From the NCBI RefSeq assembly GCF_004217115.1, contig NZ_SHKN01000001.1, forward strand, positions 1,739,781-1,803,780: a stretch of 64,000 nt of DNA, read 5' to 3'. A program made the translations under genes and the position numbers. Positions 4,705 through 61,086 of the stretch are shown one piece after another; the stretch's first letter is position 1, and each line of letters starts with the position of its first letter. The notes beneath the pieces were generated by a model. It was given only the letters and a program-made list of their open reading frames with translations, did no database searches and had not been told where the DNA came from. Source of the stretch: Ancylomarina subtilis. Its GTDB lineage: Bacteria > Bacteroidota > Bacteroidia > Bacteroidales > Marinifilaceae.

Positions 4705-6900
4705 TTATTCTATCTCTCCCAAATTAGTCACCTCATCGGTTAGTTTATAATCGTATTCGGGGTACTCAAACAGACTCATTCGGGGTTCGGTTTCCCCAAT
4801 GGAATAGCCCCATATACTTTCATAATCGGCAATATCTTCTCCCATTTCTTCCAACTGGTTTAGATATTCTCCTATAGACTTTGATTCAATAATAATCACC
4901 TTATCCATCTCATGCACAGCCGGACTATGAGCACGTGTTTTATCCAACTCAAATTCCAATATTCTTCGCCCATAACGTGTGATCCCAATCGTTCTGAAAG
5001 TCATACTCTTTCCTACTCCAGGCAAGTTCAGTACATTCCTATCTGTAGCAAGAAAGGGTAAAGCTGCTTTTCGCATTAAATTTTGAATATTATCAACCAA
5101 GACCTCTGCATGACTTGGAAAATCACTTATTGCATCCTCATACTCAGGCGGAACTTGCCCTATTCTCTTTTCCTCGGTTAACTCCTGAACCGATCGCTCA
5201 TTTGTGGCAAAATTGAAACTGTTTTCCATATAACCTTTTACACTGAAAGTATAGTAATTCAAAATCCCTATCTCATTAAGTGTCTGGCGGAGTTTTGCTG
5301 AATGCCCCCGACGCGATGCTGCCGAAGTCAATACCAGTTGGTTGGTAACAGTCCATCCTGCACTATTTAACAAACGCACCGCTTCACGTGCTTCAGGTGT
5401 AAGCTCCATGGGCGATTCAAAATGCGTTTGAACAATAAACTTCTTCACGCCCAATTTCGATGCTTTGTGTTTAAAATCCTTCAGAACCTGCACAAACTCT
5501 AAGCTAATTCTTTGAGGTAGATAGACAGGTATTCTTGTTCCCAAACGAACTCTTAAAATCTCAGCATATTTCTCTCCATCCTGACGTTTCTCATTCGCTT
5601 TCTTTTTTCGTAAGGCCATATCATAAACGGCATCCAAAATTTGTTTTAAAGATAGATTCGAGCACATAAAAGCATCGCCACCAGTAATTAATATATCACG
5701 CAATTGAGAATCAAATTCGAAATATTCCAGCAAACGATTTAGTTTATCAGGCCAGCTTTCTTTGGGTTTTAGTTTGTCGAGGTTAAAATTCAGGTTACCT
5801 CGCTGAAAATCGAACATGCGTTGACAGGAGGCACAAAGCCCTGCACAGGCTCGTCCCATAGTATCGGGGATTAGGATAGCCACCTCAGGATAGCGACGAT
5901 GAATATTATGACTCGATGGCAAAATCCAACCTGCGGCATTGGGTTTTCCGGGTTCAACCAAGTCTTCTTTTTCCCAGGCCACAATATGGCCGTATTCATC
6001 AATCAATTGCTGGCTATACACCACATAATACCGGATTGCCAAATCGGCACCAATGGCAAAATAGGGGACGCGAACATGAAGCAAGGATAAATAATAGGGA
6101 TTAACGAAAAAGGGAATGCCTTTCTTTTCTGCTTCGTAAAGAATCTTCATAGAATCGGGATCGAGAGATTCATCCAATAACTCGTTCAACAAATCGGGAG
6201 AACGAACGGCAAAACTTAGGTGAAACCTGTAATCATCCCACCATTTAAGCATCAAAAAATATTTTTGCTCATCACTCAAGTTGGGGGGAAACACATACCT
6301 GTTACTTTTTATCTCGCCAGAATCAATTTTCTCAATCAGAACCTTAATAATACGTTCCCGATTTTCTTCCCGGAGTTTTATTATTCGGGGATCAAGCCCT
6401 GTACTCCAACGATTCATCCACTCTTCAAGTTTTTTACGGCTTGGCATTTCGCGCTTGTAATCGCCACAAAACTGACGAAACAAATAAAGCATATCATTGA
6501 AAAAATAGGGTTTTGCCCCACCCGTTCCGAAATTAACAGCGAGCCAAATTAATTTGATAGGATTACTGACGGCCTTTTCTCCTCCAATATTGGGATCATC
6601 AAATTCACGGCCCGCATTATCAATATAATCGAGTATTCTGATGGCTGCAAAATCACGCCAATTTAATTTCTCATAAGCTTCCCGACCTTTGACTTCCCCT
6701 TTATAAAACAGATAGGCTTCCTTGTGTTTTTTCAATTCTTCGAGCACCCAGTTCCTAACTCCCTCCAAGGCTTCGGTTGAATTTTTGGCGTGATGCATAA
6801 TTTCTTCTAAAACCGGACTCACTTTTAAGAGTTGCTTTAAAAGCATGTGCGATTTTACCGTAATAGCGATATGATCTAGTTGGTGTACTTTCGATACCAT
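4705..6900 (-). CDS. KamA-family radical SAM protein (long lysine 2,3-aminomutase-like)
   Basis: The 731-residue protein has the radical SAM cluster motif CAGLCASC (C352, C356, C359; CX3CX2C), which is the spacing of the lysine 2,3-aminomutase branch. It is followed by DILITGGDAF, RLGTRIPVYLPQRI and FIVQTHFESPMELTPEA, the equivalents of KamA's GGDPL, R-GTR-P and THFNHP segments. It is much longer than classical KamA (about 415 residues): the extra 300 N-terminal residues are mostly helical and unlike anything I recognise. The third segment reads ESP rather than the usual NHP, so the substrate may not be lysine. PLP-binding lysine and substrate residues were not confirmed. It appears monocistronic and its function is unknown beyond family. 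Confidence 0.75.
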   Translation of the reverse strand: MVSKVHQLDHIAITVKSHMLLKQLLKVSPVLEEIMHHAKNSTEALEGVRNWVLEELKKHKEAYLFYKGEVKGREAYEKLNWRDFAAIRILDYIDNAGREFDDPNIGGEKAVSNPIKLIWLAVNFGTGGAKPYFFNDMLYLFRQFCGDYKREMPSRKKLEEWMNRWSTGLDPRIIKLREENRERIIKVLIEKIDSGEIKSNRYVFPPNLSDEQKYFLMLKWWDDYRFHLSFAVRSPDLLNELLDESLDPDSMKILYEAEKKGIPFFVNPYYLSLLHVRVPYFAIGADLAIRYYVVYSQQLIDEYGHIVAWEKEDLVEPGKPNAAGWILPSSHNIHRRYPEVAILIPDTMGRACAGLCASCQRMFDFQRGNLNFNLDKLKPKESWPDKLNRLLEYFEFDSQLRDILITGGDAFMCSNLSLKQILDAVYDMALRKKKANEKRQDGEKYAEILRVRLGTRIPVYLPQRISLEFVQVLKDFKHKASKLGVKKFIVQTHFESPMELTPEAREAVRLLNSAGWTVTNQLVLTSAASRRGHSAKLRQTLNEIGILNYYTFSVKGYMENSFNFATNERSVQELTEEKRIGQVPPEYEDAISDFPSHAEVLVDNIQNLMRKAALPFLATDRNVLNLPGVGKSMTFRTIGITRYGRRILEFELDKTRAHSPAVHEMDKVIIIESKSIGEYLNQLEEMGEDIADYESIWGYSIGETEPRMSLFEYPEYDYKLTDEVTNLGEIE

Positions 6901-7084
6901 TTTTCATTTTTTTGCATTCTCTTTAAGATACGATTTTTTAAGGTGTTTTACTAATTCATTTCTAAAGAGAAAGCTTCTGATATCTGATAAAATCAGTACT
7001 AAAGGCAGGTCAAAACAGATCCTGGTCGCAGTCTGACTTTTATGCTTATCAGAGCAGAATACGATAACCAGGACTTTAAATCCT

Positions 7085-10085: not shown

Positions 10086-11240
10086 TTATTTATGATTTGG
10101 TTTTATTTTAATATTGTGAGATAATGATTTTCTGTATATCCTTGCAATTTCAAGATATTTATCTAACTTTTCCTTTATAATCTTTAAATTATCATTGACT
10201 CTTCTAATCGATTTCAATAAATTATTCTTGTTTATTTTTAAGGTTGAAGAAGAATTCTTAACCTGCTCTAAGTGAGAAAGCGCTAAATTTAATTCTCCTT
10301 CAATATTGTCAAGCATCTTTTTTATTTCTGAATCACTTTTATATGGCAAGTAGTATTTGTTTTGATAATCGATATATTCGTTTAACAAATGTACTCCCTC
10401 GCTATAATACTTTAAAGCTAAGTTATACTGCCCTTCATTTAGCTTATCATAATACTCTTTTATAGAAAAGTTCAGATGATTAAGATTATCTAAATCTAAA
10501 TAACTTGCTATTCCATTGGATTTTATTCTAATACTAGTATTTGTTAATCGCTGGATTTCATTCTGATTATCGAAAACTTTAAGAGTGTCAACAAAATTAA
10601 AAAACACCCTTTTTGGGGATTTAGATTTTCCTTTTTGAAACTCTCTTTTTGTAATTGGGTAATTCGAAAATTGCCACAAAGGATCAAAGGGAATATGGGT
10701 TTTTATAAAGCGGTCAGGTCTCACCATGAAATTATTATTATCTATTTCCTTTACAAAATGAAAATCTTTTATATAACCAGCACCCCAAGTTGGATCAGTC
10801 AAATACCATATTGAGTCAATCATTAAAGCACACCATGCATGTGGACTATAAAGTACTTGACTATATTTCTTTGTATACCCTGTAACAACATAGGTCCTGA
10901 TCCCTACTTTAGATGCAATAGCCGAATATAAATTCACATAATCACGGCAAACTCCTTTCCTAACCTTAAGAATATCTTCACTTTTCGAGCTTGAATTCAC
11001 AAACATATTATCACAATCATAATCAATATTTTTAGCTATCCAAAAGAAAATTGCTCTTGCCTTTTGCTTTTGTGTAAGAAATTTCAAGTTGACATAATTA
11101 GCAATATCTTGTACAGAAGAAGTTGAGGAATCAGAAATTTGAAGCATGGCTCTTTCAATAAAAGTAAACTTACCACTCTTCTGAGCTTTTAATACTAAAG
11201 GAGAACAAATTAGCAAAAGCAATAAAATATTTTTAAACAT
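10086..11240 (-). CDS. Secreted transglutaminase-like (kyphoscoliosis-peptidase type) protein
   Basis: The 384-residue protein has a signal peptide (MFKNILLLLLICSPLVLKAQ). Residues about 60-160 show the transglutaminase/protease-like core: helix QKARAIFFWIAKNIDYDC, nucleophile in KGVCRDYVNLYSAIASKVGI, catalytic His in SPHAWCAL and Asp in WYLTDPTWGAG. The C-terminal third is a charged helical, possibly coiled-coil region (about 260-370) ending in a lysine-rich tail. Family members act as peptidases or structural proteins; the substrate is unknown. Codon use is more AT-rich than its neighbours, which may mean a less conserved or acquired gene. It stands alone on the minus strand. Confidence 0.75.
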   Translation of the reverse strand: MFKNILLLLLICSPLVLKAQKSGKFTFIERAMLQISDSSTSSVQDIANYVNLKFLTQKQKARAIFFWIAKNIDYDCDNMFVNSSSKSEDILKVRKGVCRDYVNLYSAIASKVGIRTYVVTGYTKKYSQVLYSPHAWCALMIDSIWYLTDPTWGAGYIKDFHFVKEIDNNNFMVRPDRFIKTHIPFDPLWQFSNYPITKREFQKGKSKSPKRVFFNFVDTLKVFDNQNEIQRLTNTSIRIKSNGIASYLDLDNLNHLNFSIKEYYDKLNEGQYNLALKYYSEGVHLLNEYIDYQNKYYLPYKSDSEIKKMLDNIEGELNLALSHLEQVKNSSSTLKINKNNLLKSIRRVNDNLKIIKEKLDKYLEIARIYRKSLSHNIKIKPNHK

Positions 11241-24426: not shown

Positions 24427-24550
24427 ATTTGGGATAATTTAAAGAGTACTACTAGTTTGTCTTTTAGGATAATCCTATTCCCGATGAAATCATTATTTTC
24501 TCTTGGAGAAAATCGCTCCATTTAACGAATGAATAGTTTCACTTTAAAAG

Positions 24551-24580
24551 AGAAGACCATTCCTTTCGAAACAGTCTTCT
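24551..24580 (-). terminator. Hairpin, weak terminator of a short transcript
   Basis: The stem AGAAGAC/GTCTTCT (24551-24557 with 24574-24580) encloses a loop containing the palindrome TTTCGAAA. On the minus strand it is followed by CTTTT. It is about 165 bases downstream of the predicted start set by the promoter at 24714-24744, so it may end a short RNA or let part of the transcription continue into the gene at 24426. Confidence as a terminator is modest because the U-run is short. Confidence 0.4.
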
Positions 24581-24612
24581 ATTTAGACAACATCGTCAAT
24601 CTAAAATTCTTC

Positions 24613-24663
24613 TCACTCATCTCTCATATACTTTAGAACGATTTCACTTACAACTACATACAT
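24613..24663 (-). CDS. Candidate 16-residue peptide ORF behind the operator-controlled promoter
   Basis: The ORF runs from ATG 24661-24663 to TGA 24613-24615 and would encode MYVVVSEIVLKYMRDE. It is the first ATG after the predicted transcription start (about 24707). A second tiny ORF (24579-24620, MSEKNFRLTMLSK) overlaps its end. There is no Shine-Dalgarno. In AT-rich DNA such ORFs arise by chance, so only position supports it: a LuxR-type site and promoter in front and a hairpin behind, next to a ThiF-type enzyme. The transcript could equally be a noncoding RNA. Confidence 0.25.
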   Translation of the reverse strand: MYVVVSEIVLKYMRDE

Positions 24664-24713
24664 AAAACCAATTGATGAATATATCGATTTATTTTGAGTG
24701 ACTTTGTTATACC

Positions 24714-24764
24714 CAAAAGTAATTTTGATTCTAATAGAGAACAACTACCCTAAAGTGTAGTTTT
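24714..24764 (-). promoter_or_regulatory. Site 1: 20-bp dyad operator with -33/-7 promoter after thiF
   Basis: On the minus strand a 20-base inverted repeat AACTAC-N8-GTAGTT (24743-24762) is followed by TTG (24742-24744, -33), a 20-base spacer, then TACTTTTG (24714-24721), an exact TAnnTTTG -7 match. The operator overlaps or abuts -33, where LuxR-type activators bind. Its 25-base core (24740-24764) is 22/25 identical to site 2 before the acyltransferase-like gene. It starts just past the thiF stop codon and points away from it, toward 24426. Confidence 0.55.
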
Positions 24765-25499
24765 CTAATTGACTGATGCGAGATAAAATTCGGGAAATAC
24801 TTTGGTTTCTTTATGGTTTGCTATTTTATACAGCAAATTTGTACACACACCAGCAGTAATCCATGAAGCAGGTGCTAATTGAGGGGGTGAATCATCGCAT
24901 TTTTCCTTTACATAGGCTTCTAACACATTTTCTAACCACCTTAAATCTACATCAGGTTGACTGTTTTGAATAATGTGCTCAACAATGGCGACTTCAGCTT
25001 GCTCATCATGCCGAATAATATCTTTTAAGCTTTCACTTGACTGGTTAATAACAAAAACACATCCGGCCCAACCAAAGTTATAAGGATGTAGCACAGGAAT
25101 ATTATTTTTTAAGCAAATTTCGTCAAAAACAAATGGAGCAGTTGAAGTAAAATCAATTGTATTAATAGCAATATCAATACCATCAATATAATCAGCGCAA
25201 TTGTTCTCCGATAAAAATACATTATGATACTTAATAACTGCCCTGGGATTAATCGTTTTAAGTCGATAGTATAAACTTTCAACTTTAGACTTTTCTATAT
25301 CATACTCTGTATAGTTCTGACGATTCAGATTAGAATGCTCTACATTATCCATATCGCAAATGGTAATATTTTCAAACCCCAATCGTAAAGCGCACTCTGC
25401 AATATTACTTCCTAAACCAGCCCCTGCAATTAAAATTTTGGTATGCTTAATTATTTCTTGTTCTTCCGATGAAATATAGATTCGATTTCTTTGATACAT
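24765..25499 (-). CDS. ThiF/MoeB-type (E1-like) adenylyltransferase
   Basis: The 244-residue protein has the E1 superfamily core. The ATP-binding glycine loop is IAGAGLGSN (24-32). DMDNVEHSNLNRQ (49-61) holds the acidic residue and arginine finger. K72 lies in the following helix, and INTIDFTS (D116) replaces the usual DCTDN. A C-terminal helix SPPQLAPASWITAGVCTNLLYKI matches the family. Zinc-binding CxxC pairs of MoeB/ThiF and an obvious thioester cysteine motif are absent, so it may only adenylate a carboxyl end. No ubiquitin-like partner gene is visible. It follows the acyltransferase-like gene by 75 bases, so the two form an operon. The target is unknown. Confidence 0.82.
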   Translation of the reverse strand: MYQRNRIYISSEEQEIIKHTKILIAGAGLGSNIAECALRLGFENITICDMDNVEHSNLNRQNYTEYDIEKSKVESLYYRLKTINPRAVIKYHNVFLSENNCADYIDGIDIAINTIDFTSTAPFVFDEICLKNNIPVLHPYNFGWAGCVFVINQSSESLKDIIRHDEQAEVAIVEHIIQNSQPDVDLRWLENVLEAYVKEKCDDSPPQLAPASWITAGVCTNLLYKIANHKETKVFPEFYLASVN

Positions 25500-25574
25500 A
25501 GTCGTAAAATATTAAAGTCAAGGTGAAAAGGTAAAGTCATAAGACTTACTCCTTAACCTGTTTTTATATATTGA

Positions 25575-26246
25575 TTAAGCTGAATACAAATCTTGCTTCA
25601 TATAAGAGTAACAAAGACTAATGTTCTGTTCCACAAATTTTTTGACACCTATGGCCGTATTAAACATGGGTACCGTTTCTGATCCCAAATAAGATTTTGA
25701 ATTTCCAATCTGGGATGAATAAATTTCCATCAATTGTAATTTCTCAAATAACTTCCTGTCACATTCAGCAATTAAAATATTTGTCCTGTCTGCATAGATA
25801 TGCTGCAAGGCATTGGCCATTAGCATCTTGAGTATGACAATTCTATTCTTTTTTAAAAGTGGGTCATCTTTAATTTTTTGCTGATCAATAGCAAAGCGAC
25901 CTATATGCCATACTTCGTGAGGCTTATAACTTAATTCACTGACAATATCATCAACTTTAATATCAAAATCCTCTTCAATTGGGAGCTTGCAACTCCCATC
26001 CCACTTTTGAGCTTTTATGGTGCCAACAATTTCATGTTTTTTATTCTTTATGGCATAGAAATAAGAACTAGAAAAACTATCCAAATCAAGTTTTCTCGTT
26101 TTAATTAAATCAGAATAATTGATAATGTTTGAGTTTAAGTGCACCTGATGATTGACACGCAGAATAAAACGACTCACTTCAGCAAGGTGGTCCTTAGATA
26201 CTAACCACAGTGAATAATCTTGAAAATCATCTAAAAGAATATCCAT
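25575..26246 (-). CDS. LuxI/FeeM-fold GNAT acyltransferase-like protein
   Basis: The protein is 223 residues from ATG 26244-26246. The longer frame opens with TTG inside the operator region and is rejected. It resembles autoinducer or N-acyl amino acid synthases: FYAIKNKKHEIVGTIKAQKWDG forms the strand pair, EVWHIGRFAID sits where LuxI proteins have E-x-SRF-x-V, and ILKMLMANALQHIYADRTNILIAECDRKLFEKLQLMEIYSSQIG matches the following helix and C-terminal strands. The key glutamate is replaced by histidine (HIGRF), so chemistry may differ. A divergent LuxR-type regulator and a downstream ThiF-type gene suggest a signal or acylated small molecule. Similarity is by eye; plain GNAT is the fallback. 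Confidence 0.6.
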   Translation of the reverse strand: MDILLDDFQDYSLWLVSKDHLAEVSRFILRVNHQVHLNSNIINYSDLIKTRKLDLDSFSSSYFYAIKNKKHEIVGTIKAQKWDGSCKLPIEEDFDIKVDDIVSELSYKPHEVWHIGRFAIDQQKIKDDPLLKKNRIVILKMLMANALQHIYADRTNILIAECDRKLFEKLQLMEIYSSQIGNSKSYLGSETVPMFNTAIGVKKFVEQNISLCYSYMKQDLYSA

Positions 26247-26273
26247 ATTGATTATAAATTTTATGTGTTTATC

Positions 26274-26323
26274 TAATATTAGAGTTCTGAATCTTGCAAA
26301 CAACTCCTCAAAAGTGTAGTTTT
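26274..26323 (-). promoter_or_regulatory. Site 2: dyad operator and promoter before the acyltransferase-like gene
   Basis: The imperfect dyad AACTCC-N8-GTAGTT (26302-26321) lies in a 25-base block (26299-26323) nearly identical to site 1. On the minus strand TTG (26301-26303) is followed 19 bases later by TAATATTA (26274-26281), a poor -7 element, as expected for a promoter needing an activator. Transcription would start about 20 bases before the ATG at 26246. The site also lies 52 bases before the divergent regulator gene, so autoregulation is possible. Confidence 0.55.
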
Positions 26324-26374
26324 AGTTATTGACAGTATAAATTTTTAAGTTATTAAGTCAAAAAAAGGAGGGAT

Positions 26375-27136
26375 ATGATTGCAATAGAGAAGTTTTTTGA
26401 TCCCATAAGTAAAGATGGTTATTTAGGAGACGACAATTACCAAATGATTAAGCAATATATGCTTGCACTTCGGGCTGTATCAAAGTTGATAAATCTGGGT
26501 TTTTATATTATCGACTACAACAAACAAGAATTTCTGTACGTATCTGACGATCCATTATTTTTATCAGGCTATAAGCAGGAAGAAGTCTTAAAAATGGGCT
26601 ACGAATTCTACAATAAAGTCGTGCCTCCTGATGACCTGGATATGCTCTTGGAATTGAATGAAAAAGGATTCGAGTTTTTCTACAATCTACCCGTCGAAAG
26701 AAGAGATAAGGCTTCTATCTCCTACGATTTTAGATTAAAAAGAAGGGATACCGGGAGTGAAATATTGATTAACCATAAACTGACCCCACTTATTTTAACT
26801 GAAACAGGTAATATCTGGTTTGCTCTTTGTTTGGTTTCTTTATCGGTTGCTGAAAAACCAGGAAATATATTCATCACCTTTCAGGATAAAGATGAAAGAT
26901 TTGATTATGATGTTATCAGAAAAAAATTTAAACCTGCAAAAGTCAAACACCTTTCAAAGCGAGAGAAAGATGTGTTACGTCTTATGATACAAGGTTATGT
27001 CACCTGCGAGATATCACAGCAACTTTTTATATCAGAAGAAACCGTTAAGTTTCATAAACGCAATATCGTTAAAAAGTTGAAAGTAAAAAGTGCTATGGAA
27101 GCTGTTTACTTTGCGACAATCAATAAGATTGTATAA
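26375..27136 (+). CDS. PAS-like sensor with LuxR-type DNA-binding domain
   Basis: The 253-residue regulator has an N-terminal PAS-like region (about 30-160), with YIIDYNKQEFLYVSDDPLFLSGY then PDDLDMLLEL resembling PAS folds common in Bacteroidota LuxR proteins. The C-terminal LuxR HTH runs 192-250 (LSKREKDVLRLMIQGYVTCEISQQLFISEETVKFHKRNIVKKLKV). There is no receiver domain and no classical autoinducer-binding domain, so any ligand would bind the PAS domain. It is preceded by a strong Shine-Dalgarno (AAGGAGG, 4 bases before the ATG), rare in this phylum. It is divergent from the acyltransferase-like gene and is the natural candidate to bind the two dyads. Confidence 0.85.
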   Translation: MIAIEKFFDPISKDGYLGDDNYQMIKQYMLALRAVSKLINLGFYIIDYNKQEFLYVSDDPLFLSGYKQEEVLKMGYEFYNKVVPPDDLDMLLELNEKGFEFFYNLPVERRDKASISYDFRLKRRDTGSEILINHKLTPLILTETGNIWFALCLVSLSVAEKPGNIFITFQDKDERFDYDVIRKKFKPAKVKHLSKREKDVLRLMIQGYVTCEISQQLFISEETVKFHKRNIVKKLKVKSAMEAVYFATINKIV

Positions 27137-60683: not shown

Positions 60684-61086
60684 TGGTGGAGCTGCAGGGG
60701 ATCGAACCCTGGTCCAAACATGCGATCAATAAGCTTTCTACATGCTTATTCCGTTCTTAATTTTCGAATCTAGTTTGGGAAAGGACACCCGAGACTAAAC
60801 CTTATCTTTTAAATTTCACCAACTCCCCAAAGCTTGAAGCCAGCTAACCCTGAATTGATAGCATCCCATATACTTACCGGAACAAGGTGTAACCATAAGC
60901 GGGATGTCTCGTCTTCGCTCCTAGAGCGATGATGAAGCTTAACCTACTGTAATTCGGTTAGGCAGCAAGAGCGTAGTTATTTTCGCCAATTAAAAAGTGT
61001 GAGACCTGATATTAACGAGCCAGATACACAATGCTCGACATGCTTACATACCAATTCTTCATGCTGTCAAAAGCCACGTCAGCCCC
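60684..61086 (-). ncRNA. ssrA: tmRNA
   Basis: The 403-nt tmRNA reads GGGGCUGACGUGGCUUUUGAC at the 5' end (61086 downward). The 3' end has a T-arm (GGUUCGAUCCC) and CAGCUCC-A-CCA with the CCA encoded at 60684-60686. The 7-bp acceptor stem GGGGCUG/CAGCUCC closes it. The tag ORF (60961-60987, stop TAA 60958-60960) reads GENNYALAA, the Bacteroidota form of the degradation tag. It rescues ribosomes stalled on broken messages. smpB is not in the window. Confidence 0.97.

Follow-up and report, generated by a model that had tools for sequence, protein, structure and literature searches.

What kind of system is formed by an acyltransferase-like gene, a ThiF-type gene and a divergent LuxR-type regulator gene in a marine member of the Bacteroidota? 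The three genes lie within a 64,000 nt stretch of the Ancylomarina subtilis genome (the window, to which the locus coordinates refer), where the GNAT-fold acyltransferase and the ThiF-type adenylating enzyme are encoded as a minus-strand pair, divergent from the plus-strand LuxR regulator. A preliminary description of this DNA had taken the trio for an undescribed circuit, in which acyl transfer and carboxyl activation make a signal that is sensed by a PAS-LuxR protein. We conclude, with good confidence, that the locus is an acyl-cyclolysine (ACL)-type autoinducer circuit, and thus probably a system of an already described kind, matching N-acyl-cyclolysine signalling. The acyltransferase, the ThiF enzyme and the PAS-like LuxR regulator are one genetically linked circuit which, judging from its sequence, is probably self-inducing.

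The ThiF enzyme has a close relative with solved structures (9egb/9egc/9egd). A phmmer search matches it to 9egc/9egb at E 5e-78, compared with 6e-12 for the next solved ThiF protein, and it is 52% identical to 9egc over the printed segment of the alignment. We take 9egb/9egc/9egd to be, very probably, the ACL enzyme AclA; a literature search on the three codes found no paper.

Linkage of the three genes across the phylum

Matches to the three proteins were collected from 395 genomes of the phylum (ThiF E ≤ 1e-40, acyltransferase E ≤ 1e-10, regulator E ≤ 1e-25) and from 56 genomes of the family. In the phylum sample the acyltransferase is found in 11 genomes (12 matches), ThiF in 12 (14 matches) and the regulator in 24, and all 11 acyltransferase genomes carry both ThiF (hypergeometric 1.5e-20) and the regulator (hypergeometric 3e-15), probabilities that ignore relatedness. 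Eleven of the 12 acyltransferase matches are divergent from a regulator match within 400 bases. ThiF adjoins the acyltransferase-regulator pair in 6/11 genomes (the window's and five others), shares the contig of the acyltransferase at a distance of approximately 9-12 kb in 4/11, and is located on other contigs than the pair in one (G300); a further genome (G285) has regulator and ThiF with no acyltransferase match. Gene order varies among the loci and linkage is retained; absence of linkage in relatives was one of the two refuting outcomes named in the preliminary description. The sole acyltransferase match that is not divergent from a regulator is a second copy in genome G143, part of a diverged acyltransferase-ThiF pair without a regulator (L037:6949-8425, ThiF 40% identical to 9egc), and may serve a related pathway that ends in another product.

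The family sample has the acyltransferase in 5/56 genomes, ThiF in the same five and the regulator (E ≤ 1e-25) in 11, that is, these five and six others, one of which (G030) matches strongly (2e-120). Within the genus, four of the five genomes hold all three genes; none of the three was found in the fifth (G002) at the thresholds used, and no empty site is definable there, synteny stopping just beyond aconitase. Over 15 loci, protein distances of the three families are correlated at 0.93-0.97, and over the 11 loci outside the genus at 0.83-0.96, values from which species relatedness has not been removed. Regulators also occur on their own: in seven phylum genomes (E 6e-105 to 8e-69) neither enzyme was found in the fetched stretches, and five further phylum matches are weak (E 4e-26 to 6e-29). 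A ThiF-alignment scan of genome contigs returned three loci only, probably owing to the narrowness of its two peptide patterns.

Table 1. Features of the locus, in window coordinates.
Feature	Position	Strand	Basis or remark
ThiF-type adenylating enzyme, proposed ATP-dependent cyclase of an N-acyl amino acid	24765..25499	-	PF00899, E 1e-34; phmmer to 9egc/9egb
GNAT-fold N-acyltransferase with WHIGRFAI motif, proposed signal synthase (acylation step)	25575..26246	-	weak profile matches; AlphaFold model
PAS-like/LuxR-type (GerE) transcription factor, proposed signal receptor	26375..27136	+	GerE, E 4e-21; PAS_3, E 0.009
20-bp palindromic box between regulator and acyltransferase	26302..26321		centre 64-65 bp from either start codon
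Second 20-bp palindromic box, immediately 3' of the ThiF stop codon	24743..24762		kept in the four circuit-bearing genus genomes
Bacteroidota-type −7 element TACTTTTG	24714..24721	-	start 31 nt from the second-box centre
Candidate small RNA stretch	24545..24712	-	long imperfect hairpin; conserved GTATGTAGTTGTAA segment; predicted transcript ~165 nt
3'-terminal, terminator-like hairpin of the candidate RNA	24550..24582	-	4/15 pairs with changes on both sides

The 20-bp palindrome and the promoters it faces

Two 20-base dyads had been reported to flank the three genes. Both are present, as a 25-nt direct repeat that is 88% alike, although they flank the GNAT-ThiF pair only and not all three genes, because one of them sits between the divergent genes. 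The dyads are conserved across families. In 15 box regions (ten loci with the adjacent trio and five with the pair only, 37,722 bases in total; G285, the second G143 copy and regulator-only loci were excluded), CTACNCNNNNGNGTAG is matched 41 times, allowing no more than one mismatch, whereas 100 dinucleotide shuffles gave 0.21 matches on average and 2 at most. The core pattern was drawn up with ten of the regions in view; the remaining five (L106-L110), obtained later through protein search, account for 10 of the 41 matches. Where boxes occur as tandem pairs, all ten pairs are spaced 38 bp apart, and the pair in L111 39 bp.

The −7 consensus of Bacteroidota promoters is TAnnTTTG. Its position relative to the box was scored in 27 box-faced promoters, each counted with one box before the acyltransferase, ThiF, the next gene or the RNA element described below, omitting regulator-facing boxes and the farther box of each pair. 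An exact TAnnTTTG is found in 14/27, and only at an offset of 30 or 31 nt from the box centre (offsets 12 to 65 scanned), whilst 21/27 have it at 30/31 with at most one mismatch; the six promoters without such an element are the four acyltransferase promoters of the genus, one target (L007) and one further acyltransferase (L108). This spacing is approximately that of the lux box at an activated promoter, and groups the acyltransferase, ThiF and the outputs nearby into one regulon. The predicted operator precedes the biosynthetic genes, an arrangement that, at the level of sequence, is autoinduction wiring. Boxes facing the regulator have an exact −7 element at 37-38 in four loci, and scattered one-mismatch matches or none elsewhere.

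In five loci (L027, L030, L031, L032 and L034), the acyltransferase gene ends in a pair of boxes spaced 38 bp apart (in L034 at 10465-10518), which face the next gene and lie within the final codons, encoding LPKSVV... and NYxLV-stop in all but L027. The C-terminal end of the acyltransferase has apparently been shaped by the operator, because the boxes overlap its last codons.

Genome-wide counts of the box core in 13 genomes gave 1-4 sites each, compared with 0-7 for a reversed-pattern control, and the excess is clear only in 5/6 genomes of a distant family, f7 (G237 2 versus 1, G398 2 versus 1). A larger regulon in the window's genome was considered and rejected, with no excess over the control and with three sites outside the locus that lack the 30/31 spacing. 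One of these three, a box-related palindrome (L058:6429, CACCTACACTTTAGGGTAGGTG; L061:6659, L062:6132, L063:6924), stands next to the same gene in four genus genomes, the three relatives including the circuit-less G002; it has different half-sites and no 30/31 spacing, and is probably another element, which may be the site of another regulator or a terminator.

Boxes are also found at regulator genes that have neither enzyme nearby. In five such loci (L111, L112, L113, L114 and L116) a box, mostly with one mismatch, lies at or just upstream of the regulator start, and in three of them the regulator adjoins a DUF3667 zinc-ribbon gene (a Pfam match in L112, by eye in L113 and L114); two other enzyme-less loci (L115 and L117) have no box. 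It is possible that the five box-bearing regulators are eavesdropping receptors.

Relation to acyl-cyclolysine signalling and to other known systems

N-acyl-cyclolysines are a signal family of the Bacteroidota, the discovery of which is credited to Linares-Otoya et al. (Nature 2025, 646:423; doi 10.1038/s41586-025-09418-9) in a 2026 review (PMC13419125), where they are also described as widespread in human gut and oral samples. With such signals reported from the phylum and a close ThiF relative already solved, the claim that the circuit was undescribed is not supported. The known pathway reportedly consists of lysine acylation, ATP-dependent cyclisation, a transcription factor named AclR and autoinduction, and is said to involve co-localised operons for secreted molecules, with structures available for the enzyme AclA. 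The Ancylomarina system shares its phylum and would share acylation followed by cyclisation, a dedicated transcription factor and autoinduction; it differs in that its second box faces a structured RNA element and no recognised secreted-product operon.

In an ACL-type circuit of this kind, the GNAT enzyme would acylate an amino acid, which by analogy would be L-lysine, and the ThiF enzyme would activate the carboxylate of the N-acyl amino acid with ATP and close the ring. The cyclised product would exit and re-enter cells, where the PAS-like LuxR protein would bind it and then the palindromic box AACTACAC-N4-GTGTAGTT, approximately 40 bp upstream of the start site, turning on the GNAT-ThiF pair in a positive feedback and also a second transcript starting just behind ThiF. 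Elsewhere in the Bacteroidota the boxes face, or the circuit sits in, clusters of RiPP (ribosomally synthesised and post-translationally modified peptide), NRPS (non-ribosomal peptide synthetase) or outer-membrane type, and in Ancylomarina the second box faces the structured stretch of approximately 165 nt, probably a regulatory RNA. The route to a signal proposed in the preliminary description is essentially supported. Linkage of the genes, conservation of the operator and of the RNA element, promoter geometry, the GNAT fold and the kinship with a solved ThiF protein are seen in the data, while substrates, product, the binding of ligand and of DNA, the direction of regulation, and both transcription and function of the RNA are inferred.

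The three genes are as first described, and the HIGRFAID segment pointed out earlier in the acyltransferase is present, with H114, G116, R117 and A119 invariant in 16 sequences. Membership of the LuxI family was rejected: Pfam at E up to 1 gave only Acetyltransf_5 (E 0.036) and no match to the LuxI (Autoind_synth) profile, and the E-x-SRF motif of LuxI-type synthases is absent, with WHIGRFAI instead. The NCBIfam model for exosortase-associated acyltransferases (TIGR03694) matches at E 1.7e-6, under the family cut-off. The AlphaFold model of the acyltransferase (mean pLDDT 69, pTM 0.73) has a GNAT fold, and its PDB matches include FeeM and the acyl-homoserine lactone (AHL) synthases RpaI, BjaI and LasI. 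The structure comparison, which bears on the other refuting outcome named in the preliminary description, gives a GNAT fold that Z alone cannot assign to LuxI or FeeM over other GNATs; FeeM-type N-acyl amino acid synthases share 8% identity with the window's protein and are tied in Z with ordinary acetyltransferases. LuxI/LuxR-type AHL quorum sensing resembles the locus in having a synthase, of modelled GNAT fold in the window, whose gene lies beside that of a LuxR-type regulator, and a 20-bp palindromic operator (at about −42 for lux). In contrast, the window's regulator has a weak PAS match and no autoinducer-binding domain, there is an additional ThiF enzyme, and the synthase carries WHIGRFAI.

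Several points weigh against an ACL-type circuit. The PAS_3 match of the regulator is weak (E 0.009, next to a strong GerE/LuxR helix-turn-helix match), and its fold prediction gave no result. The acyltransferase model is of middling confidence, its matches to FeeM and the AHL synthases being no higher in Z than those to ordinary acetyltransferases, and the other four AlphaFold models are poorer (mean pLDDT 35-56). At the window's GNAT box the −7 element is degenerate (TAATATTA, offset 30), and so are those of the three related loci in the genus; the window's genome has 4 exact box cores, the same number as the reversed-pattern control, showing no larger regulon; and no secreted-product operon was recognised beside the window's circuit. 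The names of the ACL genes, lysine as the substrate and the equation of 9egb/9egc with the ACL enzyme are, moreover, presumptive.

The same pair of enzymes could instead make an N-acyl oxazolone lipid of the OxzAB/TyzACB/TrzAS type, the LuxR protein merely controlling that pathway. Oxazolones are the product of known GNAT and ThiF pairs (PMC10404671, PMC12856293), and these systems likewise combine an N-acyltransferase with a ThiF-like ATP-dependent cyclase. However, oxazolone loci carry, fused or adjacent, a flavin-dependent oxidase of the nitroreductase family (PMC10404671, PMC12856293, PMC12479983), and Pfam found none in the 14 window proteins scanned about the locus; the window has a LuxR-type regulator and operators; its ThiF enzyme is far nearer to 9egc than to any other solved ThiF protein; and a signal accounts better than an oxazolone for operators wired both to the LuxR gene and to product clusters of several kinds. 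We consider an oxazolone unlikely. Still less probable, to the point of being barely tenable, is that the trio makes an N-acyl amino acid amide or like product that is itself an antibiotic or surfactant, under local and not population-wide control: ThiF lies approximately 9-12 kb from GNAT-LuxR among RiPP-type genes in four genomes and could be a tailoring enzyme there, but the three genes are adjacent in ten loci examined, and boxes stand before the synthase genes as well as the outputs, as expected of autoinduction.

With an ACL-type circuit in Ancylomarina, a signalling pathway only lately described from the Bacteroidota would be known from a marine genus as well. Its operator, with the centre 30/31 nt before TAnnTTTG and a tandem spacing of 38 bp, is testable and may reveal targets in other genomes.

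Predicted outputs of the circuit and a candidate small RNA

The targets that the operator marks, as predicted from gene content, range from RiPP- and NRPS-like clusters in a number of genera to the structured RNA element in Ancylomarina. Genes that lie behind boxes, or share a stretch with them, encode a lantibiotic dehydratase (L110), a radical-SAM protein (L007) and leader peptides of nitrile-hydratase type (two in L106 by Pfam; by eye in L107 and L109). Inspection by eye alone added genes resembling those of outer-membrane receptors, small GG-motif peptides (L030, L032, L110) and, beside a NusG-family gene, large NRPS-like open reading frames (L108, L118). The small peptides and a membrane protein in L031 matched no Pfam family, and the genes downstream in L031 and L034 could not be named. 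A possible further target of the circuit is the gene of an unnamed protein in G003 (6162-6905): directly before it lies a box (L064:6101) whose −7 element, at offset 31, has one mismatch.

In the window, the circuit is flanked by aconitase B on one side and by a PQLLE-family gene and an SDR-like (short-chain dehydrogenase/reductase) gene on the other, and the second box faces first the structured element and then the PQLLE-family gene. In the four circuit-bearing genus genomes a −7 element is located 31 nt past the second box (exact in 3/4), followed by a conserved stretch of ~155-167 nt that terminates in a strong hairpin. Presence of the element in 4/5 genus genomes thus coincides exactly with presence of the circuit. 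A DNA search of the 56 family genomes gave matches in 13 at E ≤ 0.01, strong ones only in the four circuit-bearing genomes (E 1e-119 to 2e-11) and weak ones in the other nine (best 1.5e-4). With a covariance model run on 40 sources, the four genus copies scored 128.7-153.6 bits and the fifth-best hit 31.6 bits (E 0.001), giving no convincing homologue outside the genus.

The window copy folds better than its shuffles (z −2.86; 2/200 as good). In the consensus structure, which comprises 47 pairs, 93% of cells are paired; changes on both sides occur at five of the pairs, and four of the five lie in the terminal hairpin. Of 500 shuffles, 9 reach the observed paired percentage, 38 the number of double-change pairs, 27 the covariation score and 404 the further pair types, statistics that are thin, as they come from four sequences and from a structure predicted on the same alignment; conservation of the predicted structure is suggestive only. 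A simple terminator scan did not list the terminal hairpin, and pairing with the starts of the GNAT, LuxR and ThiF mRNAs gave no duplex consistently beyond shuffles in the four genomes.

It is an even question whether the Ancylomarina circuit activates a dedicated structured small RNA of approximately 165 nt instead of a secreted-product operon, as a signal-controlled regulatory RNA that would be wired to the receptor by the box and −7 geometry seen before synthase genes elsewhere. Alternatively, the element could belong to the next gene as its 5' leader or attenuator, or could encode a very short peptide, which we regard as the less probable reading though one to be taken seriously. A PQLLE-type gene lies downstream in 3/4 genomes, and short open reading frames begin at a similar place in all four; these are, however, of unequal length (13, 13, 32 and 23 codons), an indel shifts the frame in G004, and a terminator-like hairpin closes the element. 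In G003 the element is conserved although an SDR gene, and no PQLLE gene, follows it, and this speaks for an independent RNA rather than a leader.

As a small RNA the element would plausibly be a new output relative to described signalling, and would, if real, link cell-density signalling to RNA-based control in the Bacteroidota; we know of no such link, and a limited literature search turned up none. At gathering thresholds, the only Rfam family matched in the window is transfer-messenger RNA (tmRNA; RF00023, 144 bits), the gene for which lies at 60684-61086 on the minus strand.

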